Origin: Siphlonurus alternatus
Taxonomy: Eukaryota > Arthropoda > Insecta > Ephemeroptera > Siphlonuridae
Direction: 5' to 3'
Assembly (NCBI GenBank): GCA_949825025.1
Contig: OX463778.1
Span: forward strand, 44,122,646 to 44,186,645
DNA: 64,000 nt
The position numbers and the translations under genes were made by a program. Of this stretch, positions 13,715-58,790 are shown piece by piece. How positions within the stretch are numbered: position 1 is the first letter of the stretch; each line of letters begins with the position of its first letter. Under the pieces are notes generated by a model that had not been told where the DNA came from, ran no database searches, and was given only the letters and a program-made list of their open reading frames with translations.

Positions 13715-16607
13715 TCAGAGACCAACAATGCGCGAGCCGACATTGTTGAGGGACTCTGAGACGCGACGCAAAACCCGTCGGAACAAGTTGCCGGGGTACT
13801 GCGAACAAAGTAAGAAAAATTTAATACCATCTTATAATTAGTTTCATGTTTCATTAATGGTTAGTAGGATTACGTACTTTTACATGCTTATTATTATTAT
13901 GCAATACTGATTTGATTAATTTAGCAATGTATGTAAAGTATATACTGTATATACTTCCTTGATTGGGCTTTAGTTAAATGAAAAAAATAATAATATAATA
14001 ATAGTAATAAAGAGTATGCATTCACGAAAAAGTTACCCAGAAAGTTATCCACGTTTCTCACTAACCGCGATTAGCCCCAAAATTAATTCAATGACACTAT
14101 AAATATAAATAAATACAATGACAATATTCATTAATAAACATGGTTTTAGTGTGAAACCTAGATAAACTACTCTCTTCGTGAATCGCACACCCAATATAAA
14201 ATATGATGAAAATAAAAGTAAATTTCTTGTAATTGGATTTTAAATTACAGAAAGTCATGTCCAGGAAGTACATTCAAATATGATATTGTTATACTTTCTC
14301 TTCACATCGAATGATCGCGTACTGCCGGTTGAATGCTATCGGTTCACAGGGGCAAGCAACCCGCATTACACAAACGTCCGAGGAGTTGCCTAACCTCAAG
14401 GATGATAGACGAGAAATAAAATTTAAAAAAATAAACTTTTAATTGCTCATTTAATTTATAAATTTGATGCCTATGAAACTTTTACAAACAGAAGATTCCC
14501 ATAGGAAGTAGATGAGTGTCATTTTAGTTGATTTTTAAAGTGAAACTTTGCAGAACGATGTGTCTTCAAATAATTAATGAGTTTTCGCATTGTCTGATCG
14601 TTTAAGCATGACGTAAGACAATTCTTTCAGCATAAAAATTGAATCTCAAAGCTTGGAAAATAAATAAAGATTATTCCATTTGTACGGAGAGTAATTAGGG
14701 CAAGAAGTTGTGGCAAGGCGGATACTAAATAAATAAACTTATTAAATCTTTGAATAGATTTAAAACAAGTAATCTCTTTTTTAAAACTTTAAAGTATTAA
14801 TAAAACAAACAAAAAATGGCAATTAGTGTACAGCTATCATGTCAAATAAGGGATAAGGACAGTGCATATATAGAACAAGCTCGTTCTGTCCGATGGTATT
14901 CAACGTCACTGGAATAAATATTGACTCACGCTGACTGCCGAGCTGAGAAGCTGGGTGAGGGACTCAGTGCCGCTGACGAGGCCTCGTCCCACGCTGCCCA
15001 GCACGTCGCCCTCATTGCCGTACTTCTCCTCCTCCTTGATCGTATCCACCAGCGGCTTGGGCTGGAAGAGAGCGGGCACCAAATTTACTACCTCTGACCT
15101 TGGCACTAATTACACATTTAGAAGCCGGTATTACACAATTAAAATATATTTATTGCATTCAATTTTTCCTTATAAGAAAACTTCAAATCCACTTGTCTTG
15201 TTTCTGTAGAAATGTTTTTTTTTTTTGTTTTTTTTTTTTTTAATTACAAAATGTAATAACAACTTCAGTCTGATGTACGTGGAATAAAATCATACCCTCC
15301 ATTTAAATGAATAACAAAGAAATTTAATTAAAAATTAAATTTTATTAAATTTCTTAAATGCTTTCACTTCAATTAAATAATTATATATGCATGCAGTTAT
15401 GCACTTTATTATATTATATACGCATACTTAATTATAATATAGTAATTTTAATCTGATATAGTTGTATACGGAGTTCGTTTAGTTTTATTGAAATATAGTA
15501 ATATATTGTCATCTATTAACATACATAATTATTTATATTATTTTATTTATTATTATTTATATATTTTTTTTAATTTTACAAATTTTTAAAACATTAATTA
15601 CATTACATTTTTATTACATTTCAACTGTCATCACAAATTTATTTTACTCTTGAGGTATAATGTTATGTAAATACATATTTAATGTCAGAGGATTGGAGCA
15701 ATGCAATAAAATTTGATGCGAGTTAAAAAGACAAGTGCAGAAAATCATATTGGTTGATTTGGTTGAGATAATTAATTGTCCGACATTGAGGATTGTTATC
15801 AATTAAAATTATTAAATCAAAATGGCATAATTTTAATTATTATATTCATTTTATAGATCATACATAAAAAAAATTGTTTGGGTATAATATATATGTGTTT
15901 AAATTAATTAAATTTAGGAAAACTAATTTTAATTAGAATTAAGTATGTTACATTTTTATGTAATAATTAACGTGATCCATGCTGTACAGCCTATGATCGA
16001 AATAAAAAATTGAATTTGAATTAATTACAAGATTTACAAGTTCCTTTATAAGTTATGCATGCTAACGTCTTACCTCTAAGTAATTGTACAGAATAGACTG
16101 AACAGGGTTGAGTTTTGTAGATTGTGGACCGTCGATTGACAGAGACGATGTCTGGGAATCATAGAAAATAATTATTACTAAAAGAATAAAATCGCACAAA
16201 AATGAATACAATATAATAATTTTTATTCTAATATACATGAAATAGCAATTAAATGCTAACCTTTTTATTTTTATTAAATGCCATGTTTGTTTTTTTAAGA
16301 TATCATGTTAAATTAATCTTCCTTTTGTCGGCATATTATATTTTTAAGAAACAACAAAATTGAATTATTAAATTCAAAAGTTGTAGTTCAGCAAATTTTT
16401 AGTGCATAAAATATAAATTCATTTATTAAAATAACATGTAATCTTAAATTATTCATGTACAATAAACTTAACACAACTGAATAGGTAAGTGCTTACGTCA
16501 CGCTTTTTTATGTCTTCCGCCGGTGCCGCGAGTGTCGGGGGCGGGAGGAAGGCGGAGGCGGCGAGCAGCAGCCCCCAGCACGCGACGAGCGCGCGACCCC
16601 ACCGCAT
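13715..16607 (-). CDS. Small secreted protein, family member A (134 aa, cationic C-terminal helix)
   Basis: I do not recognise this protein. Minus-strand exons: 16607-16497, 16151-16074, 15061-14930, 13798-13715, all phase 0 with GT-AG borders (donors GTAAGC, GTAAGA, GTGAGT). The product starts with a signal peptide (MRWGRALVACWGLLLAASAF) followed by a short Pro/Ala segment and IKKRD. The middle exons end in hydrophobic helices (PVQSILYNYLE; SLTQLLSSAVS). The last 27 residues begin YPGNLFRRVLRRVSESLNN, a basic amphipathic helix with five arginines in the whole tail and no cysteine. The ATG lies 8 nt after a splice acceptor (TTGTTCCAG), and a probable non-coding exon is at 18294-18485. Gene order and shared features link it to B, C and D. 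An antimicrobial or membrane-active role is possible from the helix alone; a prohormone is another option. IKKRD could be a dibasic processing site. Confidence 0.75.
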
Positions 16608-18293
16608 CTCTCTGTCTGGAACAAAAGCTCCACCGGGTCATTTCTCCACTCGTGTCGTAACACGGACACACGTACTCTGGTGTACGTGACTACTTGAAAT
16701 TTCGGACATTCATGGCATGACAATTGAAATGGTGCTGGTGAAATTGTCTCGGGATGACAAAGCATTTTCACTACAGTTATATTTAATAAAAAGTTACGAT
16801 TTTTTTTTTATCTTCAATTTGTTTTGGATGTGTTAGGGGAAAAAGAAGGTAAAACATCTGCTTTGAGCATTACCTGTAGATGAAATTGTAACTCTGAAAT
16901 AAACAGGGAACTATAGAATTTATACTACATTATATAATATAATAATGTATTAAAATTTAAATAATAAATCAAATGTAAAATTTTCTTTCAGTGCATAGTA
17001 CTTCATATTATTGCATTATAATTTCTATTTTAGGAATTTACCTAAAGGTATTAAGAATTTATTACAGATAATTTACATCCCGGCCCGCATCCCTCTGATT
17101 TGTTATGCTATAATAATGTAATAAGGGATTATAATTAGCAAACTTTTCAAGTCATTATGTGCGACTAACTTAAAAGGACATATAAATTTACAGCACAAAA
17201 GATTAGAAAATAAAGTAATCATACTTAGACATGCGTTTCGTTACGTCAGAAATTGTGTAATGGGATTTTATCTAACGCTGCACGCTTATATAGCGTCATA
17301 ATTTAAATTTAACTTTCCTTTACGGAGCAGAACACTACAATTACGTAAAATGAAGAAAAATGTTTATTTTTTTTAATTGAAACCTTATCCCATGTATTTT
17401 ATTTGTGTTTGTTTTTTCTCAAATTAAACTGGCATAAAATAATATTTTGTATATGTTTAAAAAAATATTTATTTTAATGTTGGTTTCAACACAAACTACA
17501 GCTTTTAAAGACAAATTCAAAGATTTATCTAAATAAATATTTAATCCACCTTCTGCAAGTGGTTTGACATGTTTTATGTGTTATAGGGGAAAGTTTCTGA
17601 TCAGTGTAACGTGTAAGATTGAGCCATAAAAAATATTGTAGAAGCCAAGTGTGTGTTTACGACAGTGGAATGATGAAATATGCCGTTATAGTTTATTATC
17701 TAATAGAGAACAGCTGGACTGCATGTCATATATATTATATCACGTATTTTCATACACTTATTAATTACTTATCTATGAATATATCAAACAGACGCAAAAT
17801 TATGAGCATGCAATTCAATACTCTACAATTATTATACAAGACCTTATAAAAATATAAATGTATTTGCTAAAATCTGGTTAAAATGAAGAATTCCCTTGAG
17901 CAATTAACCAATTGAAATGTTAGATATTTATTGAACATTTTTTTATTTCTTATTTTTTCAATTTGTTTAAATGATATTGCTGACCTATATTAAAATTTCA
18001 CATGTTGTAATATTTGCCATTTAATATTCATGTATTTCTAATTTCTCTACGCATGTTAATTAAGTTATTATTTCATAGAACACTTAGTAAACATTATTAT
18101 TATCAACAAGAAATTTTACTATTTATTGCTTTTTTCTTTTCTAATAAGTTAAGCTAAATATATCTATTGTTTTTTTTAAACATTAAGACTTTAATTACCA
18201 GCATAAGAACATGTATTTTAGGTGAAAGTCCATTTAGCGAGTTATGTCACTGCAGTTTTTGCTGGATGTGACGGCTCTACCTTATATACTTAC

Positions 18294-18519
18294 TGTGTGG
18301 TTGTGTTGACTTGCAGCCGGGGGGTGTCCCGACGGTGCTCACGCGTTAGTATCCTCGTGTTCTTGCTGCCACTACACACAAGAAGTGCACACCACTGAGG
18401 AGCAGTAAGCACTGAGTGACCAGTAGTACCCCTGGCTCCAACAGCCCCGTATACACGGTGCAACACTACTTCGGAGAAAGGTGAAAGTTCCGCATTTGCG
18501 CGCGCGACCTTCTTTTAGA
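18294..18519 (-). promoter_or_regulatory. Probable promoter and non-coding first exon of gene A
   Basis: On the minus strand a TATA-like TCTAAAAGA (18519-18511) is followed by a GC-richer segment that ends at a good donor, CACACA|GTAAGT, at 18294/18293. It points to the acceptor 8 nt before the ATG of gene A, giving a 1.7-kb 5' intron. No long ORF is present in the segment, so it is read as 5' UTR. The start site near 18485 is inferred from the TATA distance. Confidence 0.5.
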
Positions 18520-19519
18520 TGCGGCAAACCAATCAAATTGCAGACCAACATAACTCACTTTCCCTTACTTCTACTTAAACGAGTAGATTAGGTAGCAATG
18601 TATAACTCCCTCTTTCTCTCTCCTCTTCTTAAAAATATTTCCTCGAAGTCAAATTTTATTATTATTAATAAGATGTTTATATATCTTTTAAAAAAATAAT
18701 TTCTTTGCTTTTCTAATGTGAAGATTATGTAATTTATTTTTTTTTTAAATTGGTTCTATTATTTAAGTTTTTAAATTAGTCAAATTTGACACCAAAATAA
18801 TAATTTTCTTTCCTTGGGCGGAAGAATTACAATTATTATTTTTTTATAAAAGTAAATTTTCTGCATGATGTGACTAAAAAATCAAAATTAATGTTTTCAA
18901 TATATCTTTGTTATTTAACCTTGCTAATATAGCACTATGTAAAAAGATTATATTATATAAAATAGTCAATACCATGAAATTCAAGGATACAGACCGTAAA
19001 TTATGTAACCTCACTTAAAACATAAAATTATATTTATATTACATAATTATTGTTTTGAAATTTCATAAAATAATAATAATTATCGTTTTATCAGACTTTT
19101 ATTTCATTAATAGATGCATACATATAGAACTGTATTACAATTCTCAGTATACATTGCAGGCATGAATTATTATGGAAACATATATATATATATCTCTACA
19201 GAAACAACTAAAGATATAAAAATGATATAATTTACTACACAAAATCTAATTAAACAATTTTGATGTTACAAAATTTACAAATTAAAAATAATATACAAAA
19301 ATGTAAGAAAAACCCACACCTCTTGTAATTCCTATTTTTCCTTTTTATGTGATAAGCTTCATCTTCTGAAATACAGTGCAATTTCCTTCCGTATCTTCCC
19401 TATAATATACATAAGTAAAAAATTCCACAATTTTTAACAAAAATTTCAGCTCTTTAATTGGTGACGGCTATGAATGGTGCAGGACAGTGAACCTCGAGAG
19501 ATTATACAAAGGGGGCCTC

Positions 19520-21036
19520 TTATCTGGAGGCGGTGGTGGTCTGAGCCACGGGGGTGGAAGCGGTGGCGTTCAGAGCCGCGGCATGTCGGTTGCGCTGAGA
19601 AATGTTGTTCAGCAGCTGATTCACCGCGCGCAGGGCCGCGATCGGGATCTGAAGAAACAACCAATTAAACAGTGCACTCAAATAAAATTAATTTCAAGAA
19701 TACGACACAGATGCAGAAATGAAAAGGAAAAAAAAAAAAAAAAAGTAATATATGAATTTTATGTATAATTATACTACAGACACAATTATAATGAACTCAA
19801 GGATTTACATGGCACCATTATAGCTCAACCGTTTGCATAAAAAATTTACAGCCCAGGTTTTTCTGAATTCTACTATGTTGTTTGTTTGTTTATTTATTTT
19901 TTGCTACTCAATTTATTTCAATTACAGACTTTTAAAAGTTAAAATTTATAAGCGTATAATAATAAATAGATTAATAATAATGCTATTTCTTTTCATTCTT
20001 AGAAATTATGATAATAATTAAATTATTTCATTTTTTTACGATCCAATCTTACATTTAATAGAAAATTATGCAAAGTATAAGAATCTTTTTAGTCGTGACA
20101 CCTGCAGAAAATTGGAGAGATTGCAGGTGTGCTTAACCTTGACCTTCCGAAACTCTAATTAAAATGTTTATTGAGCGTTAGGGGAACAGTCGCCTTCGTC
20201 TTGCATGTTTCTCGTGCTTGTAGACACGACAATAAATTAATATCAAGCAACAGAAAACAATGATGTCAACGTAATTATAAATATCACATTTAGTTTTTTA
20301 AGGTAAACATGAAAGGACATCCAACCTGCGGAAAATTAAAGATAATTACATTTTTTACAGTTTTATAAGTCGTTTTTTTTTTAATAAAACCTTTATACCG
20401 TGATCGAGGTAAGTCCTCCAAAATAATTGTTAATAATTATTTTTTTAAATATTTTTTAAAGTATACACAAAACTGATGGATTACATATACATTGGATTCG
20501 TATGGTTCTTCATAATGTCAGGAAGTAATTTATACAAGAAAAATTTATGACGTTGCTTGTACCGCTATTCAGTACATTTAGCTCTCATGAGCAGGCTATC
20601 AGCATGACTACTACTATTTAGCACCTGGAGGGTTTAGTTGGAGGATGTTGACCCACCTGAATAAAGTCGTCAATTATGCGCGTGAAAAAGTCCATGGTGG
20701 GTTTTATGGATGGTGCCTTGGTGGTTTCAGACTGATCGGTGACAGGTTTTTCAGTCGTCGTAGAGGAAGGTAACGTCTGTTGAGGTCTGCTCGGCAAGGC
20801 CTGTAAAGATTTACATAACTGTGACATGGATTCATTTTGACAACTCACTAATTAAATATATTATAGGGTTTCTCGATGAGTAAATTTTGCAGAGTGAGTG
20901 GACAGAAAAGGTCACTGACCGGTTGTTTCTCCTTTGGGATGACGTCATTGTCGAGGTCCGGGAGCTCCTGGGCGGTCGTGACCGCGGCCAACAGCAGCAC
21001 GCTCAGTAAAATCAGAGGACGGGCAGGGGTCACCAT
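19520..21036 (-). CDS. Small secreted protein, family member B (129 aa, Thr/Ser/Pro-rich middle)
   Basis: Function unknown. Exons on the minus strand: 21036-20920, 20800-20657, 19648-19520, all phase 0; donors GTCAGT and GTGGGT, acceptors TTTACAG and CTTCAG. The signal peptide is obvious (VTPARPLILLSVLLLAAVTT). The mature part has an acidic start (ELPDLDNDVIPKE), a Thr/Ser/Pro/Lys segment (SSTTTEKPVTDQSETTKAP) likely to be O-glycosylated, then FFTRIIDDFIQ at the exon end. The last exon opens IPIAALRAVNQLLNN and ends in an Ala/Thr-rich tail after RNRH. The FFxxI..-exon border-IPIxxL.AV..LLNN arrangement is shared with member C. The ATG follows the acceptor TTATAG directly, so the 5' UTR is in another exon, probably 24328-24530. 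Two Asn-x-Ser/Thr sites (NIS, NAT) are present. Confidence 0.75.
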
Positions 21037-24000
21037 CTATAACAAGCACATGTTACATCGTTTTCAGTTTTCATTGTAGCCTTGTCAAGTAAAAAATTAT
21101 CATCGGAGTCTTAAAACCATCCAAAATAATATCTTATACAATCTGCATTGTGTTAAATCTTTTTAAAAACTGTTTACCACATTTAATGCATTTAAAGACT
21201 TTTGAGTTAGACAGTTTATTTATCATATATTTATATTGATTGCATAAAATAAGTTTATTCTCTTCTTGAAGTTAGATTTCTCTGCAATCTGGTATATCAT
21301 GGTATCATATATGACAAAATATAAAGTGTATGCAGATTTCAGGAGACTTTAACGAGAGAATGATGATTAAAAAAATCTGAAATAAAATAATGATATTGTT
21401 CGAAGTATCTTTCTATGTCAAACAATATTTTAACATGCACATCATAAATTAAATTCTTTAATAAAACAGATGATAAATCATAGAGAATATATTATTATAT
21501 TGCAATTATTAACTATATAGCAACTATTTTTGTGCAGAAAATATACCATTTCAATCGTTTTAGTTGAGGATCATTAATATTTCTGTCAGACATTGCGATT
21601 TCCTCATAGTAATTTAATTAAGCAAATTTCAAAACAATCCTCAACCAAGGTACAATATTTGCGTCACCTTAATAATATTAATTAATGCGGTAAGATATAA
21701 TCGTAAAAGTTGGGACAACGTGACTGCTGCCGGCAAGAAAAAATTGCAAAACTATTATTATATGTACTGTTATTTGATATAGTAATCAATAATTTGTTCT
21801 AACAAGATATCAAAATTACTTAAAAAGAATTTTTTCTTTAAATATAATTTATCATTGGTAATAATTAATATATAATTTTTTAAAGTTCAAAATGTAATAA
21901 TTAACAGCTCATGAAAATTTCTTAAAATTACATAACTCTTTGTAGTTATATAAAAAAATTGTTACACGTTTTACCCAAGTAGTACACGTTGATGATAAAC
22001 ACATAAGAAATTTAATTATCATGATTAGTCCTTCAAACGTGTTGATGGTGCAATATAGTTATCTTGGTTCGATGCATGCTGTTAACTTTTTTTTTTTTTT
22101 TATTAAATTTAATGCTTTCATATTCTAGCTCTAGTTATTCTAAACATATACATATTTTTTTTAACATATTCATAATTAAATCCATAAATTGGCCTAATAA
22201 TTGTGATTTCGGTATAATTCAATTTGGTATTTCATAATTTTTGCTCAAATTTCCTTTCTTCACAGCCGTAAATAAGAGTAAATAATATGCTGAATATAGT
22301 ATACTGATGATAATTGAAAATGTATATATTATAGTTCTTAACAATTACACATAGAGTACATGGTTTGGTACATAAAATGTAGGAAATGATGAGATGTACT
22401 GGAATTAATTATTTACCAACACTAATGTTGACTCAAGTGTGCTCCTTCTAATTCAGTTATAAAAATTGAGCGACTTCATTACCCCAATAATCTAGTTTTT
22501 TTATGCGATGTTGTTATAAGATAAATACATCAAGATTTATAATTTATTGTAAAATGCTATGATTTTTATAAAGTTATAAACGAATTAAAAAAAAAAATAA
22601 ATCAGTTCTGTAAATCCCCATATTCAGAGAACTCTAGCATATAGTATAATGTTAGCGATACTTATATTAATTATAACATTTATAAACCTGTATATTTAGT
22701 TGCTTATATATAGAGCTATAAAAATATTGTTATAGTTTTCTTGATCTGTATAATGCAATTGTATATATTATAATAAAATTATGTTTTACGATAAACATAT
22801 AAAAATGACACAACATTTTATCTGAGGAGGAATAATAATTAAAAAAAACAAGGTTTATATCAGAATAAACTATACTTTACAATTTTTTAATAGAAAAAGA
22901 AATCTACTTTTTCTTGGAGGTATTGAGTCATATATGATTAAGTAGCGTACTGTTATTTGATTATTATATAGTGATTCATCGCAACTTAACCGTAAAGTCT
23001 ACAACGGTTTGCTGAATCAAGGAAAGTACTGATTTAATTAATTTTAGTTGAGATTTCGAGATCAGTATAACACCTGAATACAGCATCAATTATAAGCACA
23101 TGCTGACATACAATTAAGTATAGCAGGGAAAGCCCACTTTTTTATGTAGTTCATATTGGTCTTAGTCAACACTCATGACATCATATATTATAATGTGAAA
23201 GGGTAAAAAACATATTGAAATGGTGAATATTGCAGCACCGCCGCCCTCGACCGATAACAATATGTTACAGCCGTGGCGTGTGGCTGCTAACGCCCAAGTT
23301 CTGCACGTGTTACTACAAGGAAGCAAAATGAAACTTGAAAAAAAAAAAAATGATAATAATAATAATAAAAATAATTAAGTACAGAAACAAAAAAAAAATA
23401 CAAAAATCACTGAAATCTTAAAAAAAAAAAAAAAAAAAAATCTCTGCCCCAAAAATTTATTAGGAGCTATTCACAAATAACTTAATTGACACCAAGTTAA
23501 ACCTTAATTCGTATTTTTTTTTCTAATACTCGATGTAATATGAATTTGGAATTTGTACTAACAATTTTTATATTAGAGACTTTAAAATAGTCTGTGTGAA
23601 TAAATACCCCCCGCCCATTTCCCCATTTTATGTAATTAAAATTTATGTTCTATCTTTAAATATAATCATATTATATATAATTAAACTTATTACTTTTATT
23701 TTCGTTTGCATCGGATCGCAATAAAATTTATAAACCTGTATTGTTAATACCATAAAATAAAATGCTATTACACTCTGTGAGATTAAAATTATTCTTTTCT
23801 GTGAGGAAAAACCCGCGATATGTTATTTTTTCTGCTATAGCCTGTATGACGTAAAAACTAGTGCAAATTATAACAGATGCTCATGTGTTTTTTGTTACAA
23901 AAATAAAACATTTTTATGAAACACAAGGTCAAACGATCCATGCCTATATCTATTTACGTCATACAAAACCACCTGTGTAACATAATATTATTTATATTTT

Positions 24001-24327
24001 TTCAGAGATCTCAACGCAAGATCTTGGCAAAGTCTGAATAAGATTTATATTTATGACAAGTTATTATAAAATACATCTTAGCAAAGTGGAGGTGAAAAAA
24101 AGTAGGAAAAACTGTATTTGAATAACAATCTGCAAATACTGACTCAGCAAAAAAAAAAAAAAAAAAAACTTTTGATTATATAAAGAAACAGACTATTAAA
24201 TTGATTTTAAGTTTTTAGATTTTATAAACAAAGAAAATTTATATAACAAAAGAACAAACCACAAACTTTTTCTATTTTATAAGAATGATTTGACGATATA
24301 TAATTCCGGTATGACGCGTTACCTTAC
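21037..24327 (-). other. 5' intron of gene B (AT-rich, no gene seen)
   Basis: 3.3 kb of very AT-rich sequence with homopolymer runs (A/T at about 22090, 23340, 23425, 24150). A GC-richer spot near 23236-23310 (CACCGCCGCCCTCGACC) has no ORF or splice context that I can support. Confidence 0.4.
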
Positions 24328-24569
24328 CTTGTATTTTTTTATCTGTGGTGCTGCGGTTGGAACGAAGTCTGCTGTTGTAGCGCTGCAGTGGGAATGCCCT
24401 GTTGATGATCGATCTAGCTCGGTCGGCGGCGAGAGGAGCTGGCGGGGAGGAGCAGTGGCCCTTTCACTTAGCAGTCTTAGCACCCGGCCACCACCGCTAC
24501 CTGAGCTGCCTCCGCCATGCATGCAGCACCGTGCACTACTCGCGGCTCAACACCCGTTATAATAATAAA
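24328..24569 (-). promoter_or_regulatory. Probable promoter and non-coding first exon of gene B
   Basis: Minus-strand TTATTATTATAAC (24569-24557) resembles a TATA box. It is followed by a GC-rich segment ending at the donor TACAAG|GTAAGG (24328/24327). A 67-codon open frame crosses this segment but runs through the donor and shows no known motif. Together with the ATG that directly follows the acceptor at 21036, it is best read as 5' UTR. Confidence 0.5.
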
Positions 24570-24719
24570 AATATCATTGTTGTAAGTCAAGCCAGCTCAC
24601 TGCTGCTTAGCAATATGGAAGGTCATCAGGATCGACACTGATGGTTACTTCCGTACACGTATAATCTAGAAGCATCGAGTAATTAAACAAAAATCTCATG
24701 TGTTCCATAGAAAAATTAC

Positions 24720-24720
<1 letters not shown>

Positions 24721-24770
<50 letters not shown>
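24721..24770. repeat. (TA)n microsatellite
   Basis: About 25 uninterrupted AT dinucleotides. Confidence 0.95.
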
Positions 24771-24772
<2 letters not shown>

Positions 24773-25881
24773 ATAATTTGAAGCCTTGAAAACAGTTTTT
24801 GTTCTGTATTTTATACTGGACAATTTTGGAGAAATTTGCCACTTGCAGAAATGTTAAGATAACTATATAAACTTTATACTTCATGTATGAACAGAGAATT
24901 TATTATATATATTATATATTTTCATTATACGTGGTTTGGATATGCATTTAAATTAAACGTCAAATTTAATTCCCAATAGCAAATCGTAAAAAAAAAAAAA
25001 AAAAAATTAAAAAAAAATCACGACCTTGACTCGATTGTTGCGTAGCAGCATGTTAGAAATTATAATAATTATACTGTATATAGAGTGTGTTTTTTGTGCC
25101 ATATATAGCTTAATTTAACAATAATCCTAATTTTGAAATGCATAATATAGTAGCTGAATAGAACTAAGGTGCTTTTTGATGAGCAACAAAGAAATGAAAA
25201 TATCACACTGCATAAAATGAGAGCCCGGTGATCAAAATATTTAAAAGCAATATTCACTTTTTACACTTTACAGTGCAACCTTTACCTGCCATGGTTTATG
25301 AATCTGTTTGATCGAAAAAACCCTCTTGATTGTGATGTAAATTTTTAATTTTAAACAGGTGTATGCTAATCTGATCCTTTTTAGAACTTATTTTGCTTAA
25401 TAAAATATTTAATATTTTGCCACAATAATTTTCCATGTAAGTTTGACCTCCTGAATATTTTTAAAAATATTTTACTTCAAAGTGTACCTACAAGTTTACA
25501 GTGAAGTTTATTACAAAGTATAAGGAAACAAGTACGCTTGAAAATATGTAGTCGTTCTCCTTGAATCCAAGTTCAGGGCCACACAATCCTCTTCTTTAAC
25601 ACTCCCTTCACGAATGTTTATACCGGGCAAAACCAATAAATACTATAACTTTTATTATTTTACCACCATAGCGCTTCCAACCTACATGCAATGGATGTCA
25701 TAAAGGGATCACAATTTTATAAATTGTTTTACATTTTTGTAGCATGTATTATATTTTATATACTCAGGTCTTGGAATGCAGTATTTGAGTTTGCGTATAA
25801 TTAAAAACAAAAAAAAAAGAAAAAAATGGAGTTTATAAAAGGAGGCATATAAAAAAATACACTATATTAAGTATTATCATA

Positions 25882-26022
25882 AAGGGGCATTCACAAAGTC
25901 TTAAGGACACATTTAAGGCTCGATAATTTAAAGCTTGATTTTAGACGTGTTTTTTAGACCCAAAATTTCTGGTCTTAAATTATTGACTTAATTGTGGCCT
26001 TAAGACTTTGTGAATGCCCCTT
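25882..26022. mobile_element. Foldback MITE with GGGGCATTCACAAAG termini
   Basis: AAGGGGCATTCACAAAGTCT at the left is reverse-complemented by AGACTTTGTGAATGCCCCTT at the right, with inner pairing around CTTAAG. The ends resemble those of the element at 38366-38543 (GGGGGACATTCACAAAG), so the two form one family. Confidence 0.75.
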
Positions 26023-26096
26023 ATAATGTCGATTGAATTTATTTTAATTAAAATAATTTGTTATTATATACTCTACACTTTTCTATAGTATGAAAA

Positions 26097-26422
26097 TGGA
26101 GTACCGATCTCAATTTTTTTTATTGCAGAAATGGATAGAAGGTGCAAAATTATGCTACTCTGATTTTTTTTCAGATTTTTTAGAGCCCGGCAACTATTTT
26201 TTAAAAATTATTGAAAGTGCAGAAAAAGTGCCGCCTCTTGCCGCCTCTCTTAATAAAAGATAGGACCCAAAAGGGACGTGGATTCGAACCCGACCTCGCC
26301 AAAACTTTTTAGCAATACTTCCCGGTTCCTAAAAAAATTTGAAAAAAATTAGAGTAACATAACTTTTCATCCTCTATCCATTTCTGTTATAAAAAGTTTT
26401 GAGGTCGGTAGTCGGTACTCCA
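26097..26422. mobile_element. Foldback element family X, copy 1
   Basis: Ends TGGAGTACCGA / TCGGTACTCCA. Subterminal arms carry the family phrases TTATTGCAGAAATGGATAGA and TTTTTCAGATTTTTTAGAGC in both orientations. The interior has a GCCGCCTC repeat and a tRNA-B-box-like GATTCGAACCC. The same interior occurs inverted in copy 3 (39475-39795). Confidence 0.8.
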
Positions 26423-27723
26423 ATTTATAACAAAACTTTTATACTTCTCCCATCTGCTTGATATATATTATAGAAAATAGTAGTGGAATTCTTTATATTA
26501 TCTTAATTACGTCCCGATGAAATAATCAATACATCTGACAATAAAAAGGACAATCTTGTAAGAAGTCAATGTGTATTAATATTTATTTGGCGATAAATAT
26601 TTAGTCTAGATTCTCTCTTTTAGAACTTCTTTTCCATAAAAAATATATCAGTTGTTAAATGCTATTGATTAAAGTTAATTGATTTCCACATAAAGTTTTT
26701 ACAATTTAGTACACATTTTTGATTGAATAAATGAAAAAGTGCAACCCTAAAAAAAGTAATATTATACTTATTTTTTAGAATTTATTTCAGTCATTAAATT
26801 TCATTGATTGAATCAATATTGCAACAGTTAAATACGATACATACGTCGTCATTTAATACATTGATACTCAGGCATGCAGAATCATCTTCAATGAGTGTGG
26901 TTTTCCCCATGACGTTGAGAAAATTCATTACGTCAATTCATCAATAAATAATTTGCTCTCACTATCCAGAAGTGATTCTTAGTTTCAAGCCAGCGGCATG
27001 ACTCTCTCACGTTGCTTCCTCGTCTCTCCAGCAACTTGCGCCCAAGTGAGAGTACACTGGGTACACAAAAACAGGTCTTTCAACCTTCCAATCGTTGTTC
27101 AGATACATTATTTTTTTCATATCTTCAGATTATATACATTTAATTTTTTTTTTCTTGTGTATTTCCTGCGTAAATTATGTTACAATTACAAAGAGTTTAA
27201 AAAAATAACAATGATCATTGATTTGGAAATAAATTACAGGAATTACAATCCCTCTTTTCTTTTATGATTATAATCTTTGGATAATATTATGAATACTAAC
27301 TAATGAATTATTAATACATAATTATTAATAATCAGTATAATACATCGTACAGGTAAAGCTAAAAAAAATGGTTTTAATTTGGGCAGACATTTCTCCAGTG
27401 AAGTGTGGATCCTCACTTGATTATTACTAAATAATATCCATGATCAGAAAATATTATAATAATAATTAAAGCACTTACAAAATCAATAAGTAAATTTCTT
27501 GCTTCGAAGTTATGCAACTTTTTCAGCAACAAAATTGATCAAACAATGCTGGTCAAGAAGCATTTCTAAATAGAGGTGCTATTTTTTATAATTCAATTCC
27601 TATATGGATATTAGATTAGGATCCCAAAAAGATCTCAAAATATTAAATTTGTCCAGGAGTTATTGTTTTTCTCTAATGACTTGAACTTTACTTCTAAATT
27701 CACATTCTAATAAATGACTGATT

Positions 27724-27842
<119 letters not shown>

Positions 27843-28150
27843 TTTGTGTCTTTATGTACTATATTAGATGAAAAATTAAGTTATTCTGAGCCAAGTTAAA
27901 ATTGATGAAATTGATGTTCCTCGGTACGAGTTTTTCAAACTCTTGGGGTTTACACTGTAATTTTTATATGTAAAATTCTGATGTCGAATTCTCTGAATAA
28001 ACAAATAAAAAACAAAACAAATAAACAAAACAAAACACGCACAGTGATGAGTTGCAGTGCTTTTATTTTAGAATAGGCTTTAAATTTTATTCTTATTGGA
28101 ATGCAATAAAATTCATTATTCAATTATGCATTTTATTTTAATGTAAATGA

Positions 28151-28546
28151 TTAAGGGTAAGATAACACGAACAATCGATTGTTGTAGTCCCATTTGATTA
28201 ACATGTAAACCTTAGCAACCTCATAATGATTCTGAATTTTTTTTTTAGAGACAGTTCTTAAATTGGCACCAAAAAAATATGGAAAAAATTTCAAAACAAT
28301 CGGACGATCCAATTTTTTTAAATTAATATTTTAAATTTTCAGTATAATATATAGGGCTTTCGCATGGAGACCTAAACTAAGAAAAAAAGAATTGGATCGT
28401 CCGATTGTTTTGAAATTTTTTCCACATTTTTTTGGTGCTAAGAACTGTCTCTCAAAAAAAATCAGAATTATTATGAGGTTGCTAAGGTTTACATGTTAAT
28501 CAAATGGGACTACAACAATCGATTGTTCGTGTTATCTTACCCTTAA
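28151..28546. mobile_element. TTAA-flanked foldback element (piggyBac-type target), copy 1
   Basis: TTAAGGGTAAGATAACACGA at the left mirrors TCGTGTTATCTTACCCTTAA at the right. The arms are about 185 bp, with a loop near 28330-28370. Flanking TTAA on both sides fits the piggyBac-type target duplication. No ORF, so it is non-autonomous. Related ends occur at 48368, 50033 and 60477. Confidence 0.8.
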
Positions 28547-30066
28547 TGTAAAAGAACAAAAATATAACAGTAGGATTACGTAATCCATGTACGTATAATT
28601 CATGTCGTATGTGGTGACAGAAAAATGGAGTACACGTATCAATACTACTTACATGATGCTTAAAACTCTTATTCTTATTAAGCTATATAATTTAAATCTT
28701 CTACAAGGAGTGTGATTAAAATGAGCAAAGTGCTGTTTTGGCAGACTTGGCAGAGTACCAAAAGAAGATAAACTGAAAGCTATATTTTTTTTACATCAAG
28801 GTAATAAAATTTTAAAAGTAATTTCAAAGCATGGCATTAACTTAAAAAAATAAAATAAGTTAAGTTTAAAGGAAAAGTCATCTCATTTAAACGATGAACG
28901 TATTAAATTTATGAAATTATATTAGGTGCTTTAATATAAAGTTTATGCTTTATTTTTAATATCATTAAGCTTGTTTCTATATTTCTATATGACTTATTTG
29001 AGCTTCAATAGTAAATCATGTGGGTGAATGTATGCATTTTGTGTATATGGACTTTCGTCTTTTACATTTTTACATTTCACCAATTGGGTTTTGGGTATTT
29101 ATTTATAATTATTTTTCCCTCCAAACTATGTATTTTTAACCCAATAAACAATTATTATTATTGGTCTATTATACATATATATAATATACATATTATTATG
29201 TATTATGTAACCAAAATCATTATAACAACTTTATTAATTTATCTAAAAAATAACACACACATTGATGTATAAATGATATTGAAATATCCTCAATTATTAT
29301 CAAAATCACAATAATATAAAGAACTTATTAGAGTGTGGCTTTACAAATACACGAAATAAACTGAACGTGCTTCATAATTCATACGAAAATAGTTTTTTGA
29401 CTTATGCTCTCAATCTTGTGTGATGACCTTGTATTATTTAAAATGAAAAAAAGGTAAAAAAATCAAGTTTATAATGTCTGGAGAAAGGCGGGTGCATTGT
29501 GAACCACGTTTCTGTTGCAACCAAAGAGCGAGGCAGCGGTTGACCATCGAAACTTCGCGCAATAATTGCGTGGATTGCCGTTCACTGTTACGTAACAATT
29601 TACTCAGCTTTATGTGTAATTTAGGATGAAATGAAAAATAATTATAACATACATGAAAGTGGTTTTTATAAATATTTTATTAGAAAAAAATACAAAATAC
29701 ATAATTATACTTATTACATGAAACTGGTTTGATCTCAGTATTAATCAAACTGTTCATTAATTTTTAATTCCGTAATTATTTTAAATTCATGGATTGCAGA
29801 GGTAGGTAAAGCCATAATATTATTATTAAATGCATTGTAATTTTAATTACTTTAAATTTAAATTCCTGTCAAAAATATATATATTATGGCTTAATTTTAG
29901 TGTTAATTATGTTTAAGACAATATAATACACATAATTATAATTTTTTTTTTTAAATATTACTTTTCTTTGAATCGATATTGTTTGGGGAAAAAAAAAAAC
30001 ACAACAGTACGGCAATTTTGAGACTTGATGTTCCAATACTGCCGAATTTGCTATGATGAAGAGATT

Positions 30067-31509
30067 CTAAGAGCGTGTGCTTCCAGACTCTTGCAGCTGG
30101 GATTGTAAGTTGTTGTTGCCGTTGTTCAGAAGACGGCGCACGGCATTCAGGACGGAGATTGGGATCTGCAGGACACAGTTTGGGTTAAAATTCAACCATT
30201 CGAATTTATTGCAATGAAATAGTAATGGAAATTCGTTACTTCAGAATGTAAAGCTATATAGTATAGTAAGTCCATGAAATTTATTGTGGAACTTTGGCCC
30301 TTAAGCTTTATTACATAAAAATTTAGATGGAAATTTTGTACCTATTAGGGGATATAGAGAATATAATCTATAGTTAGTTAATGGAACTTAATGGAGTATT
30401 GTCCTCAATTTTTTTATTGCAGAAATGGATAGAGTGTGCAAAGTTATGCTACCCTGATTTTTTTCAGATTTTTTAGAGCCCGGGAAGCATTTTTAAAAAA
30501 TTATTGAAAGTCCTTTTTGTGACGTCACGCGGCGGCAAGTCCTATCTTTTTCTTAAGGAGCGGCGTCTCGTGACGTCACAAAAATAAGTTTCAATAATTT
30601 TTTAAAAATAGTTCCCGGGCTCTAAAAAATCTGAAAAAAATCAGGGTATCATAACTTTGCACCCTCTATACATTTCTGCAATAATAAAAAAATGAGGTTA
30701 ATACTCTATTATACTATACTTAAAATGCATGGTCGTTGTACTTACAAGTTAGTCGCGTGCCATGCTTAATTATACGAATAGAGAAAATCTAAGTATCGTC
30801 TTGATAATTCTAGACACGTCTGCGCAGTGAACTTACTTTCATATGCAAGAGTCATTGGGAAAAGTGAGAGCGTTGACACGTCCATAATATACTTACGTTG
30901 AAAATGTCGTCGAAGAAAGAATTAGTTGGGTTATCATCACGTGGTGGTACCTCCTGTAAACATAACAAAGATTATCAAGTTGGAGCTACTTTATGTAAAT
31001 AGTCATTAACCTTGTATTTTTAATTTGGTTTTAAGTGGTTTTTAATAGTTGAAATTAAGACATTAAGCTAAAATTAGAATAAAATGAAATATATGGCGTA
31101 AAACTTGGTTAAACATAAAAGTTTTTTTTTTTTTCAGTTTTGAAACTTAATTTTGGTTACACAACAGACAAAAACAATCGCAGGTAATATTAAATTCAAT
31201 AAAATTTGAAGTTAAAAAATGTTTTACTAAATAGTATAAATAGCTTATTTTTCAGTGTTATTAAATCATAGATTTTTAATTTACGTCCAATAATTTTGCA
31301 ACAACAAGTTTGACTTTTGAGCCAGCCAATATTATTGAAAACTAGTTTCACAATAGCACCAAAGTGATATTATGACATTCAGCGCAGAGTTTCAACCAGG
31401 TCGATCTCCCGTGGGCATGACTTACCGGGTTCTGGGGCATGGCCAAGGTAGCGGCCACGAGGGCCAGCAGGAGCAGCGCGCACGCCAGACGGGAGCTTAC
31501 GAGAGCCAT
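30067..31509 (-). CDS. Small secreted protein, family member C (79 aa)
   Basis: Function unknown. Minus-strand exons: 31509-31426, 30953-30897, 30165-30067, all phase 0, donors both GTAAGT. Exon 1 is a signal peptide (SSRLACALLLLALVAATLAM). Exon 2 of only 19 codons ends NSFFDDIFN, and exon 3 opens IPISVLNAVRRLLNN before an Asn/Gln-rich tail ending STRS. The exon 2-3 junction aligns with member B without gaps: FFxxI.. then IPIxxLxAVxxLLNN. The ATG is 2 nt after the acceptor GTTGCAG, and a candidate non-coding first exon ends with the donor CACAG|GTGAGT at 33148. There is no cysteine and no obvious dibasic site. It is the shortest member and shows the minimal plan: signal, acidic spacer, two helices. 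Confidence 0.75.
30391..30710. mobile_element. Foldback element family X, copy 2
   Basis: Left ATGGAGTATT and right AATACTCTATT flank the shared subterminal phrases TTATTGCAGAAATGGATAGA and CAGATTTTTTAGAGCCCGG. The interior differs from copies 1 and 3 and carries GTGACGTCAC on both sides of GGCGGCAAG. It lies in the intron between exons 2 and 3 of gene C. Confidence 0.75.
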
Positions 31510-33147
31510 TTCTGCAACAATCACGTCAAAATCAACCCGGGTGCCAGCGGTCAGCATGCACTGTATTTACGGCTGTTATCATAGAGGGAGGAGACGAGAA
31601 AAGTGTGCAGGAATAAATTTTTACGTTCGTTCAAAGGCAGTGTTGCATAAGGATAATTTAACTTTTGGACTACGCCTAACATTATTTTTATTAAAAGTCA
31701 TCAAATGAATCCCCATTAAGCACCCTCATGCGAATCTAATGAATGTTAATTATATATTAGGAAGCAGGAGATCATTATTGTTCTCATAAAAGAGTGTCAA
31801 ACTTTTATGTTTTTGAATTTATATTATTATTAGCATAGAAAAAAGGCTAATGTTATGTATGATGAATTTGTCTAACTGAGACGAAACCCTTAATTATTAT
31901 CTTATTGGGCATGCTTGCAACGCACGATATTTATTTATTTAATAAAAATTAGATTATAAATCTTGAAAACTGAAATTAAAACAAATTAAACAAATAATTA
32001 AAATAACCCACTAATAATGAGTACAGTTGTTAATCAGCGTCAAGCAATTGTCGGCTCAAGGCAAGATTTTATTAGCCAATTTTTGTGCAGTCTATCAAAG
32101 TCTGAGATTTTAAATTTAACATTGAATTTTAAATGGCTTACCTGGTAGAAAATTAACATACATCGTTAGTAAAATTTTGAAGGATATTCTTAATTAATTT
32201 GTAAAAGGACAAATTTAATAAAAAAAGTCATATTAATTGACTTAAGCCAGACAATTTATCTGTTAATTGGTTGAAAAATTGTTTTGATAAGAAAATGCTG
32301 CGACGCTTATTGAGCTCAAGGGAGTACGAAGCATGCGATCCTAAAACAAGGACGCTCAATGCAGGAAGTGTGAAGTATCAGACGTGATATAGCTTTTTAA
32401 ATGTAATTCAATTGCGCAATTACAACAGAGAAAGCGTATACCATAGTAATAGAGAACGATTAAACAATTCAATTTATATTACTACGACAGCATAAAAATG
32501 CATTGTAAGATTTTTCTTATATAAACCCCTTGCATGTATGCAACTTTTTCTACATTTTTAAAAATAAAGAGAGACTTGAACAACCGCAACATAAAAATAT
32601 TTTAAAATCAAGCATTTATTTATTTTATTGGAACATTTGGTTGTACGTAGACAAACATTGATCAAGTCAAGATACTTTTCTTTCTGTAACTAATATAAAC
32701 ATTATTTAAAATAAACCAAGTTGATTTTGCATTTTAAAAAAAATATTATAATTTTCTTAAAAATATTAACAAAATTATTGTATATTAAGAAAGGTAGGTT
32801 AATTAAATTATAAGTCACAAATTATGTACCGTACAATCAATGATACAAATTAAATGAAAGGACTGCAATTTGTTTTCATTATTGAAAGGATTGTTTATAA
32901 TATTGATATATTTATAATATTTATTTATTTGATCATATTTATTAAATATGATAAAATAAATATACTTTACGTTTTTAAAAATAAATAATTGAATTATCAT
33001 ACTATTTGACGATTTGATGAATCTTGAGACTTGAGATTAATCGCAATTTCAATTTACCACATAATATTTTATCATAAAAAGTATATAATGTTATATTATT
33101 ATACACTCAAGAACCAAAAAGCGTGCGCCATCAAAGTGAACACTCAC

Positions 33148-33433
33148 CTGTGGTATCGAAGGAGGTTTGTCGAATGAGCAGTTCAGTGCTGCTCGCGGTG
33201 GTTTTCTTAGCTTGAGACGCCGGGGCCTGGTGCGTGGAGGGGGAAAAAATCTCCCTCGCATTAAGCACCAAGGTCCAGCAATCTCTGCATCCTCTTCCAC
33301 CACCACCTGGTGCTCATTAACGTCCTCGAACTCTTGAGTGCATTTCCTAATGATATTAAGGAATGCAGTCTACTGCATCGATCTGACTCATCAATCTCAG
33401 AAAAATTATAATACACCTTTTTTATATAACGTC
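33148..33433 (-). promoter_or_regulatory. Probable promoter and non-coding first exon of gene C
   Basis: Minus-strand TATATAAAAAAGG (33433-33421) is a good TATA box. About 250 nt downstream a GC-richer segment ends at CACAG|GTGAGT (33148/33147), pointing to the acceptor just before the ATG of gene C at 31509. The segment contains a 71-codon frame without known motifs. A further intron inside it (acceptor-like TCCACGCACCAG) cannot be excluded. Confidence 0.45.
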
Positions 33434-33831
33434 ATGCAGCAAAAAATGCATGAACTTCTCCTTAAAAGCTTTAAATTCGAGCACATGCTTATTCTTTTTT
33501 TGACAGCGATTATAGTGAGATGATTACAGCCTTTGTATGAAACCACATAAAAAATAACATTAAAAAAATGCGTATTTTTTAATCTAATATGAGATTGAGG
33601 TTTCATTGTGTCTAGCTGAGTCTTTCAAGGTTACAAAGTTGATGAAAGTGTACGAAAACGTGAGACAACCAGAGCCTTAATTACCCCTGTTGGTTTGTTG
33701 GATTTTATGATGCTGCAACTCGATCTGTATAATATAATTATAAATATATATACACGACACAAATTTCCAATCCTTGACGAGTAAATAATAGTAACTTGAT
33801 CGTCTATAATAATTCTATATCCAGTTGTGCG

Positions 33832-33897
33832 CTCCATTCAAATAAAAATATTAAAGTCCATGTTAAAGTCGGATTGGACATTTTTATTCGAATGGAG
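33832..33897. repeat. 66-bp foldback relic
   Basis: CTCCATTCAAATAAAAAT pairs with ATTTTTATTCGAATGGAG around a short loop that itself contains GTCCA/TGGAC. It looks like a very short MITE or an end-to-end remnant of one. Confidence 0.55.
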
Positions 33898-34877
33898 TGT
33901 ACACCTGTACACCTTATAACTTCTTTAGATCGATATTATGACTTGCCTGAATGAATATAAAGAGACTCATTAATTGTCAGATTAGAAGTAATAAATCTTG
34001 ATATTTCAAGGTCAATAGTTATTATTTTTGTTTCCGTGTCTTGAAAGTTGAAACTCATTATTATTAATTTATTTATGATCATGCAGCCATATTAGAAATA
34101 TAATATTGATTTCTATGTATAATAATAGATACCAGATACAGGTAGTTTTTACGTACTATTAAAATCCACTTGAGTTCTATAATGAGTCTGGAAACTACTG
34201 TATATCCCAGGCTGTGATTGCCGGCCGTTTTATTATACATGCAGCAATGAAGAAAATTTCCGTATATTTATGCATACTAGCTTGACCGCGACGTGCGTCA
34301 TTCAGTAATACTCTCTATGCAGTTGGGACGTAATTTTCCATCGTACTAGCTTCTGCATTCTGATTGACATTGAATATGGAGAACAGGTATTTAATTATGA
34401 TGCAATATTTCCTACCTGCATAACAAGTTTTTGCATTTCTTCCTCATAAAGAAGAAAAAAAATATATATTGCAGTAATTTATTTCTTTTCAATGAAACTC
34501 ATACTGCTTCAAAGAAATGGTATATACAATAAAGAAAAGTACAGTATATAATTAAATATACATATTTCAGTTTATTTTTTAATTTTTTATTAAATACAAT
34601 TAAAATAATTAAATATTAAAATTATTTATTTTGACAATAAAATTATTTATTGTAAAATAATATTCCAAATTGAGGAATTCCACATTGTCAAAATTATCCT
34701 AGATAAATTAATTTTTTAGGCAATTAAGCCTTTTTTTATTTGGTATTTCTAGAGGACACTTCAGAAGCTCTAAATTGAATTCTATTTTATTCGTACTATT
34801 ATGAGCTCTAATGTAGTTTTCCTTTCTCTTTTTTCTACGGTCAAGTTATTGCAGCTGGCTGGACCTTGGTCACGTGG

Positions 34878-36395
34878 TCAGTGCGAGCTGGGGTGTGGAG
34901 CGAGAGAGAAGAAGCGCGAGAGGAAGGCGCGTCCAAGCTGGTACTTAATCTGAAACACAAGCACGCAATCGGAACATTAATGTGCGTAATTATTTGTCAT
35001 TCACGTCGTTGTCTCTTCAATGCATTCAAATCACCGCTGATGAGTTCTTGCAAAACATCATCCTATCATTATATATAGTACTAAATAAATAAAACATAAT
35101 AATTATGTATTTGTATATTATATAATATATATATGGTCATGTAATTAACTTGATTATATTCGTAATAATAGTTTTAACAAAATAATTGTTTACTTCCCGG
35201 GAATGCAATTATAAAAAAATATTATAAATTATCTATAAGAATTGTTTCACGAAGGATGCATGTTAAAGATTTTATTATTTTTTACTTTGTTGTATATATT
35301 ATTAAATGTATCATTATTATTTATTATATATCTACTTATTATTATACAATGAGTCATATATTTTTGACGTATAACTTATAGTAGTTTATATAACAATTAA
35401 TAATCATCGAGATCAACTTTTTTTCTTATTTTTTACAAAGACTGCAATTTATTATGCAGAATCCAGCTAGTGGTAAAGAAAAGTGTTGCAAAACATTAAA
35501 GTGGGAAAAAAGTGCATGTAGCGTTTCTGTTAATCACTCCTTTATAACGATCGATGTGTCCATATATATCGCAATGTAGTGAATTAATTTATCATAACTC
35601 TTCGTATCTTTCATTTGTCTGTGGCCTATTTTTGGCTCTATAACTATTTTAGTTCTTAAACAGTGGATAATAGTTAGAAATATTTTACATTTCATGTTAG
35701 TAATATACGTGTATACTCATGGACAAGTTGGTGAGGTAACTCGAGACTGTTTACTTTCTCGTATAGGGACTGACCTACAGTTGTTGATTACGACAAATTA
35801 ACACAATCTTATAAGTAGATCGCTTATAAATGAAAAATGCATACAGAAGATAAATCCCGTTATTTTTCAGATATATCTAAAATGCATAATGCAATATTAT
35901 TTTTAGCTGCAAAGAAAACAGTTCACTAATTAATACAATCGACTTCTTAAAAAAATTTAAATATTAAAAACTGCATACTGCATGCTTGTTATGAATAGCT
36001 AACTCACTCTGCTTAGTAAATCAAAATGTGCAAAATATATATAGATAAAGCAAAATAAAGAAATTTTTGTCAAACTAACTTATTTAGCAAAACTGCATGG
36101 AAATATTTCATGAACTTTTTGCAAATTGTCTGTTGATATTTAAGCAATTGAGACTCACGTCGATGATGTCTGCAATGATGTGCGCCAGAGGACTCGCCCT
36201 GGTGGGTCTCTCGACGCCTCCCTGTCTGGTGCTGGCCGCGCTCTCCGAGATCAGGTCCAGTTCCTTGGCCAGCAGGGTGTTGGAGAGCGCCTCCCCGGGA
36301 CCCCCCTCGCTCTGTGACACGGGCTGTGAGCCCACCCCACACAACAGCACCCCGACACTGAGCAGCAGCACACACGCACTCACAGAACTGGCCAT
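34878..36395 (-). CDS. Small secreted protein, family member D (102 aa)
   Basis: Function unknown. Two coding exons on the minus strand: 36395-36159 and 34949-34878, phase 0, donor GTGAGT, acceptor TGTTTCAG. A signal peptide (SVSACVLLLSVGVLLCGVGS) precedes a Gly/Glu/Ser segment and AHIIADIID at the exon end. The last exon encodes IKYQLGRAFLSRFFSLAPH, again a basic amphipathic helix at the very C-terminus. It lacks the LNN motif of A-C, so it is the most divergent member. GTTGTTGCAG|AGATGG at the ATG is almost the same as in gene C (TTGTTGCAG|AAATGG). A TATAAAAG also lies about 31 nt upstream of the ATG, so two modes of initiation are possible: splicing from a distal exon, or a proximal promoter with almost no 5' UTR. 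Confidence 0.7.
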
Positions 36396-54650: not shown

Positions 54651-54861
54651 CGGACCAAATACCCCCGGACGAAATACCCCCGGACCAAATATCCCCGCCC
54701 GGACCGGACGAAATACCCCCGGACGAAATACTCCCGGACGAAATATCCCCGGACGAAATACTCCCGGACGAAATACCCCCGGACGAAATACCCCCTTGTA
54801 AGTGGAGAGGGGCGGCCGACCAACACGGGAGGGGAAGTTGACTTTATTTATAAAATTTTCA
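54651..54861 (+). repeat. 15-bp minisatellite (GGACGAAATACCCCC) with unique flank, copy 1
   Basis: About nine and a half units of GGACGAAATACCCCC, alternating CCCCC, TCCCC and CTCCC endings. They are followed by TTGTAAGTGGAGAGGGG and GAAGTTGACTTTATTTATAA. In frame the array reads GRNTP pentapeptides, a consequence of the 15-bp period. An inverted copy lies at 58571-58790. Confidence 0.85.
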
Positions 54862-55038
54862 CAACAAATATATATCATATATAATATTCAAAGTATATTA
54901 TTTATAGTTAATGCCGTATCAAGATCTCAAATTGCGTATTTAATTTTACTATACCAAAACATACTCAAAATTGTGCCGCAAACAAACGATTTTTGTATAT
55001 ATATATATATATGCTATGCTTACTTTGATTGTGCGGCA

Positions 55039-56465: not shown

Positions 56466-56536
56466 TATATTATAAATTGTCTCAGCGTTTTGCAGCAAGA
56501 TTTTGAAGGTTTTTAAACGATTTTAGGTTTTTAAAC

Positions 56537-58070: not shown

Positions 58071-58570
58071 ATGTGCGCATTGAATTCGGGCTTTGGTGCC
58101 AACACATATAAATAGAAAAGGAAGGAATAAATAAGAAAATAAATAGAACAAAAAGTAAATTAAGTTTCTTCAGGAGGGGTACACATGCTACGTTAAGTGT
58201 TCACGGCACCTATAGCACCAGGGGACCAAAAACAATAAAAAATATTGCAGTTTTAATTTTTAGACCTATATACCAATCGAATCAAAATTAAAAAATTACA
58301 CTAAAAAAACTTAATTAAATTTTTTTTTAAAGTAAAAAATTATATAGGGACGATTTTGAAAATTTTTGGTTAAAAAAAATCTAAAAAAAATGCAATAAAC
58401 ACTTATAATTAACATGCATAAAATGTATCGTATCAAAATATATTACACATTAATTTTAATTTGATATGAATGATATATGATAAATTAATGCAAAATGTAT
58501 TGGCCTAACGTTACTAACTTCCTTCTTTAATACGACGCGTGTGACGTCAGACAAACGACAGAAAAACAGA

Positions 58571-58790
58571 CTTTATAAATAAAGTCAACTTCCCCTCCCG
58601 TGTTGGTCACCCACCCCTCTCCACTTAACAAGGGGGTATTTCGTCCGGGGGTATTTCGTCCGGGAGTATTTCGTCCGGGGATATTTCGTCCGGGAGTATT
58701 TCGTCCGGGGGTATTTCGTCCGGTCCGGGCGGGGATATTTGGTCCGGGGGTATTTCGTCCGGGGGTATTTGGTCCGCTTACCCTTCAAAA
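58571..58790 (-). repeat. 15-bp minisatellite with unique flank, copy 2 (inverted)
   Basis: Reverse complement of the arrangement at 54651-54861: CTTTATAAATAAAGTCAACT, then CCCCTCTCCACTTA and about nine units of GGGGGTATTTCGTCC. The copies lie in inverted orientation 3.7 kb apart and bracket the two elements at 55039 and 56537. Confidence 0.85.

Follow-up and report, generated by a model that had tools for sequence, protein, structure and literature searches.

Small secreted protein families arranged in tandem arrays are common. In the Hessian fly, the SSSGP genes combine a conserved signal peptide and conserved noncoding parts with a diversified mature part, and their copies sit closely clustered, their noncoding sequence being highly conserved (PMC2955719). 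In Schistosoma japonicum, another account describes dispersed genes with a common signal sequence and promoter and with different products (PMC3434034). Here, four predicted genes (A to D) are described in the window, which is the whole 64,000-nucleotide stretch analysed from chromosome 1 of the mayfly Siphlonurus alternatus, together with E, a copy of C on chromosome 8. Between C and E, the noncoding parts and the signal peptide are better conserved than the mature part, as in the SSSGP genes, but this is not general among A, B and D. Unlike the clustered SSSGP copies, C and E are on different chromosomes, and the likeness is one of pattern only. The same can be said of the Schistosoma genes, which belong to another phylum, while C and E also share later intron ends.

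In sequence, the comparison is with uncharacterized proteins that carry an FNIPIS core, namely Periplaneta P0001, the Cimex 'glycine-rich protein 1-like' P0007, the Panstrongylus 'Putative conserved secreted protein' P0013, Neodiprion P0028 and Cloeon P0042. Like B and C, these relatives have a low-complexity spacer, a helix near the C-terminus and a hydrophobic signal-like start (judged by eye), and the intron point is probably identical. B and C have a single motif copy, whereas the relatives in cockroaches, bugs and locusts exceed them in length and in several cases have two; the Gly/Ala-rich region of the cockroach and bug relatives is absent from B and C.

The array and its gene models

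Genes A to D lie head-to-tail on the minus strand, from the stop codon of A at 13715 to the ATG of D at 36395. The array is flanked on the left by an HSP70-family gene and then a glycosyl-hydrolase-35 gene, and on the right by a tectonin-type gene, all on the plus strand. Re-derivation of the borders gave 12 coding exons, each with a length divisible by three, and eight coding introns, all of them GT-AG. The predicted products are 134 aa (A), 129 aa (B), 79 aa (C) and 102 aa (D) long.

16497..16607, minus strand: gene A coding exon 1, signal peptide (exon re-derivation)
16074..16151, minus strand: gene A exon 2 (exon re-derivation)
14930..15061, minus strand: gene A exon 3 (exon re-derivation)
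13715..13798, minus strand: gene A exon 4, basic amphipathic end (exon re-derivation and helix analysis)
18294..18580, minus strand: probable 5'UTR exon of A, donor 18293, 5' start left undefined
20920..21036, minus strand: gene B exon 1, signal peptide (exon re-derivation)
20657..20800, minus strand: gene B exon 2, Thr/Ser-rich spacer and first helix half (exon re-derivation)
19520..19648, minus strand: gene B exon 3, IPIAALRAVNQLLNN and tail (exon re-derivation, motif matrix, genome pattern search)
24328..24640, minus strand: probable 5'UTR exon of B, donor 24327, 5' start left undefined
31426..31509, minus strand: gene C exon 1, signal peptide (exon re-derivation, comparison with E)
30897..30953, minus strand: gene C exon 2, FFDDIFN at end (exon re-derivation, genome pattern search)
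30067..30165, minus strand: gene C exon 3, IPISVLNAVRRLLNN at start (exon re-derivation, genome pattern search)
33148..33380, minus strand: probable 5'UTR exon of C, donor 33147, 5' start left undefined (end conserved in E)
36159..36395, minus strand: gene D exon 1, signal peptide and spacer, AHIIADIID at end (exon re-derivation)
34878..34949, minus strand: gene D exon 2, IKYQLGRAFLSRFFS and tail (exon re-derivation)

The base composition of the stretch is about 30% G+C, and most coding exons coincide with G+C-rich islands. The ATG of each of the four genes lies 0 to 8 bases past an AG acceptor-like end, and A, B and C each have upstream an extra G+C island that terminates in a good donor (exon ends 18294, 24328 and 33148, respectively). 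These islands are probably 5'UTR exons; that of C is supported by the conservation of its end in the paralog E, and those of A and B we infer. An upstream exon was looked for in D and not found, and TATAAAAG stands 34 bases ahead of its ATG. Signal peptides were called from the hydrophobic stretch alone. A scanner for signal-peptide exons recovered just A among the four known genes and is therefore too strict for counting.

An earlier note on this DNA had proposed the four-gene minus-strand array at 13715..36395 and phase-0 introns throughout, and both stand after the re-derivation (8/8 introns in phase 0). The last-exon starts that it quoted are present in the sequence, with the correction that the string for A begins four residues into the last exon, where YPGN comes before LFRR. 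The common plan holds as to the signal peptide and phase 0 but not as to a uniform exon layout: coding exons number four in A, three in B and in C, and two in D, in which a single exon holds the signal peptide and the spacer together. The mature helix region had been said to lack cysteine, and none occurs in A to D past the signal-peptide end, the cleavage points being approximate and set by eye.

Repeats were also observed. Intron 2 of A contains a dispersed repeat of about 200 bases (window 15819-16025) with at least 39 other matches across chromosomes at 84-92% identity. A fold-back repeat is found in intron 3 of C (30389-30712; arms 30409-30534 and 30564-30689, 91% complementary), and a similar element (82%) in intron 1 of E. 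Nested inverted repeats lie between C and B (28150-28547; 94-nt arms at 98% and 57-nt arms at 95%). An identical 15-base tandem repeat occurs at 54651-54795 and at 58632-58776, the two being oppositely oriented. Between them are 80-85-base tandem arrays, and the stretch 54651-58776 resembles a mobile element whose long ends are inverted. In the mitochondrial contig L030, tandem tRNA-Met/tRNA-Gln genes (four Met and three Gln calls) lie between tRNA-Ile and ND2 at 6077-6878, and a long tandem-repeat stretch is found at 7.4-10.1 kb.

B and C in a family of insect proteins

The earlier note knew no named family with this pattern, and the Pfam, PDB and literature searches agree with it. The Pfam matches were all at chance level and failed the cut-off (LuxE at 0.013 for C, DUF6893 at 0.21 for B and, for Periplaneta P0001, AAA_5 at 0.097), and the PDB search found no match. 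Literature searches returned no paper describing a family with the FNIPIS helix, and a string search of 5.39 million open papers gave no occurrence of six motif strings. The single-sequence search with C (11 candidates) gave no match either, and alone it would wrongly confine the family to this one mayfly.

The profile of B and C found three proteins at E<=10, each with two motif copies, of which the best is from Periplaneta americana (1.4e-10). A profile search with the four C-termini against arthropod genomes had been proposed as a check; the profiles built on B and C led to an unnamed insect family and not to a known unrelated one. The five-sequence profile (B, C and the three matches) gave 59 proteins at E<=10 among 7991 scored candidates, which were those with most words in common and of limited protein length. 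The 28 of the 59 matches that carry a species name belong to 24 species, all insects. At E<=1e-3, six orders are represented (Blattodea, Hemiptera, Orthoptera, Phasmatodea, Ephemeroptera and Hymenoptera), and the weak matches in Diptera (best 0.011) and Coleoptera (4.7) have an intact core. The motif core is present in 45/59 matches and occurs twice in 12. The common element is an amphipathic helix of about 23 residues, which reads FFDDIFN up to the intron point and IPISVLxAVNxLLNN after it. Some matches (P0015, P0017-P0020, P0022, P0024 and similar) are proteins of metagenome contigs that resemble insect exons read into introns; it looks as if insect DNA within metagenome sets had here been translated into protein entries.

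Both B and C carry the motif helix FFDxIFNIPISxLxAVNxLLN. With a matrix built from 46 distinct instances, C scored 61.6 and B 43.9, each reached by 0/20000 shuffles. The instances have a median of 63.7 and a minimum of 47.2, so that C is within their range and B slightly under the lowest, a minimum that is biased because the instances were picked by pattern, P0036 and P0057 looking intron-derived on the left. Judged by motif and profile, B and C are members of a widespread unnamed family of predicted insect secreted proteins, the layout of which would comprise a signal peptide, a flexible low-complexity spacer, a helix broken by Asn-Ile-Pro and a short tail. The predicted C protein is a textbook member and has mayfly relatives, being identical at 26/53 positions to a 75-aa Cloeon protein with one motif (P0042). 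B is identical to the Neodiprion protein at 34/94 positions, a match that is partly low-complexity sequence. The two have an extra turn ahead of DD (FTRIIDDFIQ and FSRVIDDIFN, respectively), and B and the sawfly proteins have VIP and a KP stretch upstream of the helix in common. If these orthologies are true, the split between B and C would predate the parting of mayflies from other winged insects.

The helix had also been described as split by a phase-0 intron, which is supported in B and C, the gene models of which place such an intron between FN and IPIS. At the same point, an FN or FA end runs into VS in 17/59 relatives, in the manner of a donor GTNAGN that is read in frame. Fourteen of these are of the FNVS type, and the three of the FAVS type are isoforms of one Rhynocoris gene with the run-on after the second motif copy. 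The 14 matches without the core all stop at FYDNVFN, followed by VS, and in P0036 and P0057 the motif begins after FQ, as an acceptor would read (by eye). From these read-through translations, the intron within the motif is probably old and located at the same point in the relatives.

In the Siphlonurus genome, an exact DNA pattern for the donor side had one match, C (control 0), and that for the acceptor side had three, in B, in C and on chromosome 7 (control 1). The chromosome 7 stretch lacks exon features and a pyrimidine tract, and its reading meets a stop after ten residues. With these matches, a further canonical copy would not be expected under the two exact patterns, which diverged copies would escape. 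As queries against the same genome, B and D matched only themselves, A itself and one place at E=3, and C itself, E (E=0.0018) and one place at E=2.6 that sits within a longer open frame and was discarded. P0001 as query gave no match and also missed B and C.

Possible kinship of A and D, and the chromosome 8 copy

The similarity of B and C after exon 1 was reached by 0/2000 shuffles, and on this alignment their relationship can be taken as beyond doubt. Over the first 15 codons of exon 3, they have a dN of 0.28 and a dS of 0.84. By ordinary alignment, none of the remaining pairs exceeded chance except A-B (17/2000). Anchored at the last splice junction, the scores of the six pairs were reached by 0 to 17 of 5000 shuffles (A-B 3, B-D 9, A-D 12, C-D 16, A-C 17), counts that overstate kinship because the shuffles break the amphipathic pattern. 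In the motif test, A is borderline (maximum window 106/3000, right half 46/3000, pattern-keeping null 262/20000); it reaches this level only with a four-residue shift (LFRRVLRRVSESLNN), and its intron-anchored window gave 1397/20000. The motif was not detected in D (1565/3000, right half 2537/3000, pattern-keeping null 3431/20000), the junction-anchored window of which is the best of its 76 windows (277/20000), nor in E (2911/3000). Helix amphipathicity was reached by 1 (A), 0 (B), 4 (C) and 67 (D) of 500 whole-protein shuffles, and an amphipathic helix was accordingly recognized in A, B and C and not in D.

A and D occupy the neighbourhood and strand of B and C, have a phase-0 last intron and show helix-like ends. 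On these grounds they are most likely the products of old tandem duplication, their helix having since drifted or been lost, a reading that would be weak for A and without motif support for D. It is a substantial possibility, though below an even chance, that only B and C form a family and that A and D are unrelated neighbours. The motif results of both genes fit this, and as queries they match no other place in the genome (A only that at E=3); the shared strand, neighbourhood and phase-0 last intron tell against it, together with junction-anchored scores that shuffles rarely reach (pattern not kept). The strong divergence stated in the earlier note is true of A and D and false for the helix of B and C. 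Rapid evolution, which it suggested, fits A, D and E but is not the general pattern, and it is wrong for the B/C helix because of the strong conservation in insects of several orders.

The copy E lies on the minus strand at C8:21316908. It is like C in the 5'UTR exon end, the intron ends and the signal peptide (0 to 3/400 shuffles), the latter being constrained (dN 0.18, dS 0.95), and noncoding stretches are 56-66% identical in 60-base samples. The mature exons could not be aligned beyond chance (exon 2, 207/400; exon 3, 94/400), nor could the 3' ends over 80 bases past each stop (75/300). Taking the shared ATCTCTTCA-CATAGC string as the starting point brings the 3' ends into agreement (0/400), a match that depends on this anchor because the stop of E comes earlier. 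E could be a copy whose mature part has been replaced or, given the earlier stop and the unaligned 3' ends, a decaying copy. The strongest C-E DNA match (333 bases, 82%) was set aside as a repeat in different introns, outside the gene frame. Around E, on the plus strand, lie three first exons that resemble one another and belong to a different secreted family (MFAYCLLAALALGAV...; C8:21304862, 21326506 and 21331943), E being placed among them on the opposite strand.

Possible roles of the secreted helix

All nine motif sequences tested have their best period at 100-105 degrees, as in a helix, and the helical moment was reached by 0 to 28/5000 shuffles in eight of them and by 117 in one. The predicted model of P0001 is poor (mean pLDDT 53, pTM 0.25); at this low confidence, it has two short helices per motif with a break near FNIP in both copies, and strands within the Gly-rich part, and it is uninformative on docking. 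The favoured function, we infer, is that of a secreted helix which is carried on flexible spacers and serves docking or assembly; this suits a near-neutral to acidic helix, signal peptides and unfolded spacers better than membrane killing does. The proteins would be exported and the spacer would remain unfolded. The helix would then dock by its hydrophobic face, its partner being a different helix, lipid or a further helix of its own kind, and the spacer would thereby come to be displayed, or linked, within a layer or fluid outside the cell. Two-helix relatives would be bivalent, and after duplication the mature part of a copy could change with the frame for export and splicing preserved, as may be the case in E. 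Against docking, membrane-active or signalling peptides may also be suited by amphipathic helices.

The earlier note had suggested host defence, in which microbial membranes would be disrupted after secretion, either by the helix or by the last exon of A, which is basic (five Arg, one Glu). Amphipathic helices in A, B and C and a tandem array with diverged members would agree with this, but the mature parts of A to E have net charges of 0, 0, -2, -1 and -1 and are not cationic, the nine motif sequences range from 0 to -3, and the B/C helix is conserved rather than fast changing. Strict NF-kB-like motifs (two in A, one in D and none in B, C and E, with 0.26 expected each) show no consistent excess, and GATA and other sites give no consistent picture. 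The suggestion is thus unsupported by charge or by such sites, and we regard it as improbable. A similarly small chance is given to signalling-peptide precursors from which the conserved stretch would be cut out to bind a receptor: inspection by eye showed neither regular dibasic sites on the flanks of the motif nor an amidation Gly-Lys/Arg, and the stretch is strongly hydrophobic, against which stand its shortness and high conservation inside an otherwise variable secreted protein and its presence in two copies in 12/59 relatives. Rapidly evolving seminal, egg-surface or other reproductive proteins, the second suggestion of the earlier note, are quite unlikely in view of the conserved B/C helix, even if A, D and E differ strongly and if C and E align in signal peptide and intron ends and not in their mature exons.

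The best explanation as a whole, which joins the family membership of B and C, the old duplication of A and D and the docking helix, is about evenly poised between right and wrong. A wider account is put forward tentatively, as rather doubtful: the family would extend across winged insects, with an intron-split, Pro-broken helix kept in sequence since before the mayfly split; B-like (sawfly) and C-like (Cloeon, Ephemera) lines would have been distinct by that time, and the array would be an ancient tandem remnant in which A, D and, elsewhere, E reuse the frame for unrelated mature parts.

What appears to be new is a family found in many insects yet without a name, domain model, solved structure or description in the searches made. 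Cloeon dipterum is kept in laboratories (PMC6446309). The 75-aa Cloeon relative with one motif, P0042, is directly testable. The near letter-for-letter conservation in cockroaches, bugs, locusts, sawflies and mayflies means that the helix must do something definite. Guarded copies beside drifted ones offer a system for asking what an extracellular helix does, and the array would be useful for studying how secreted genes swap their product while keeping the frame.
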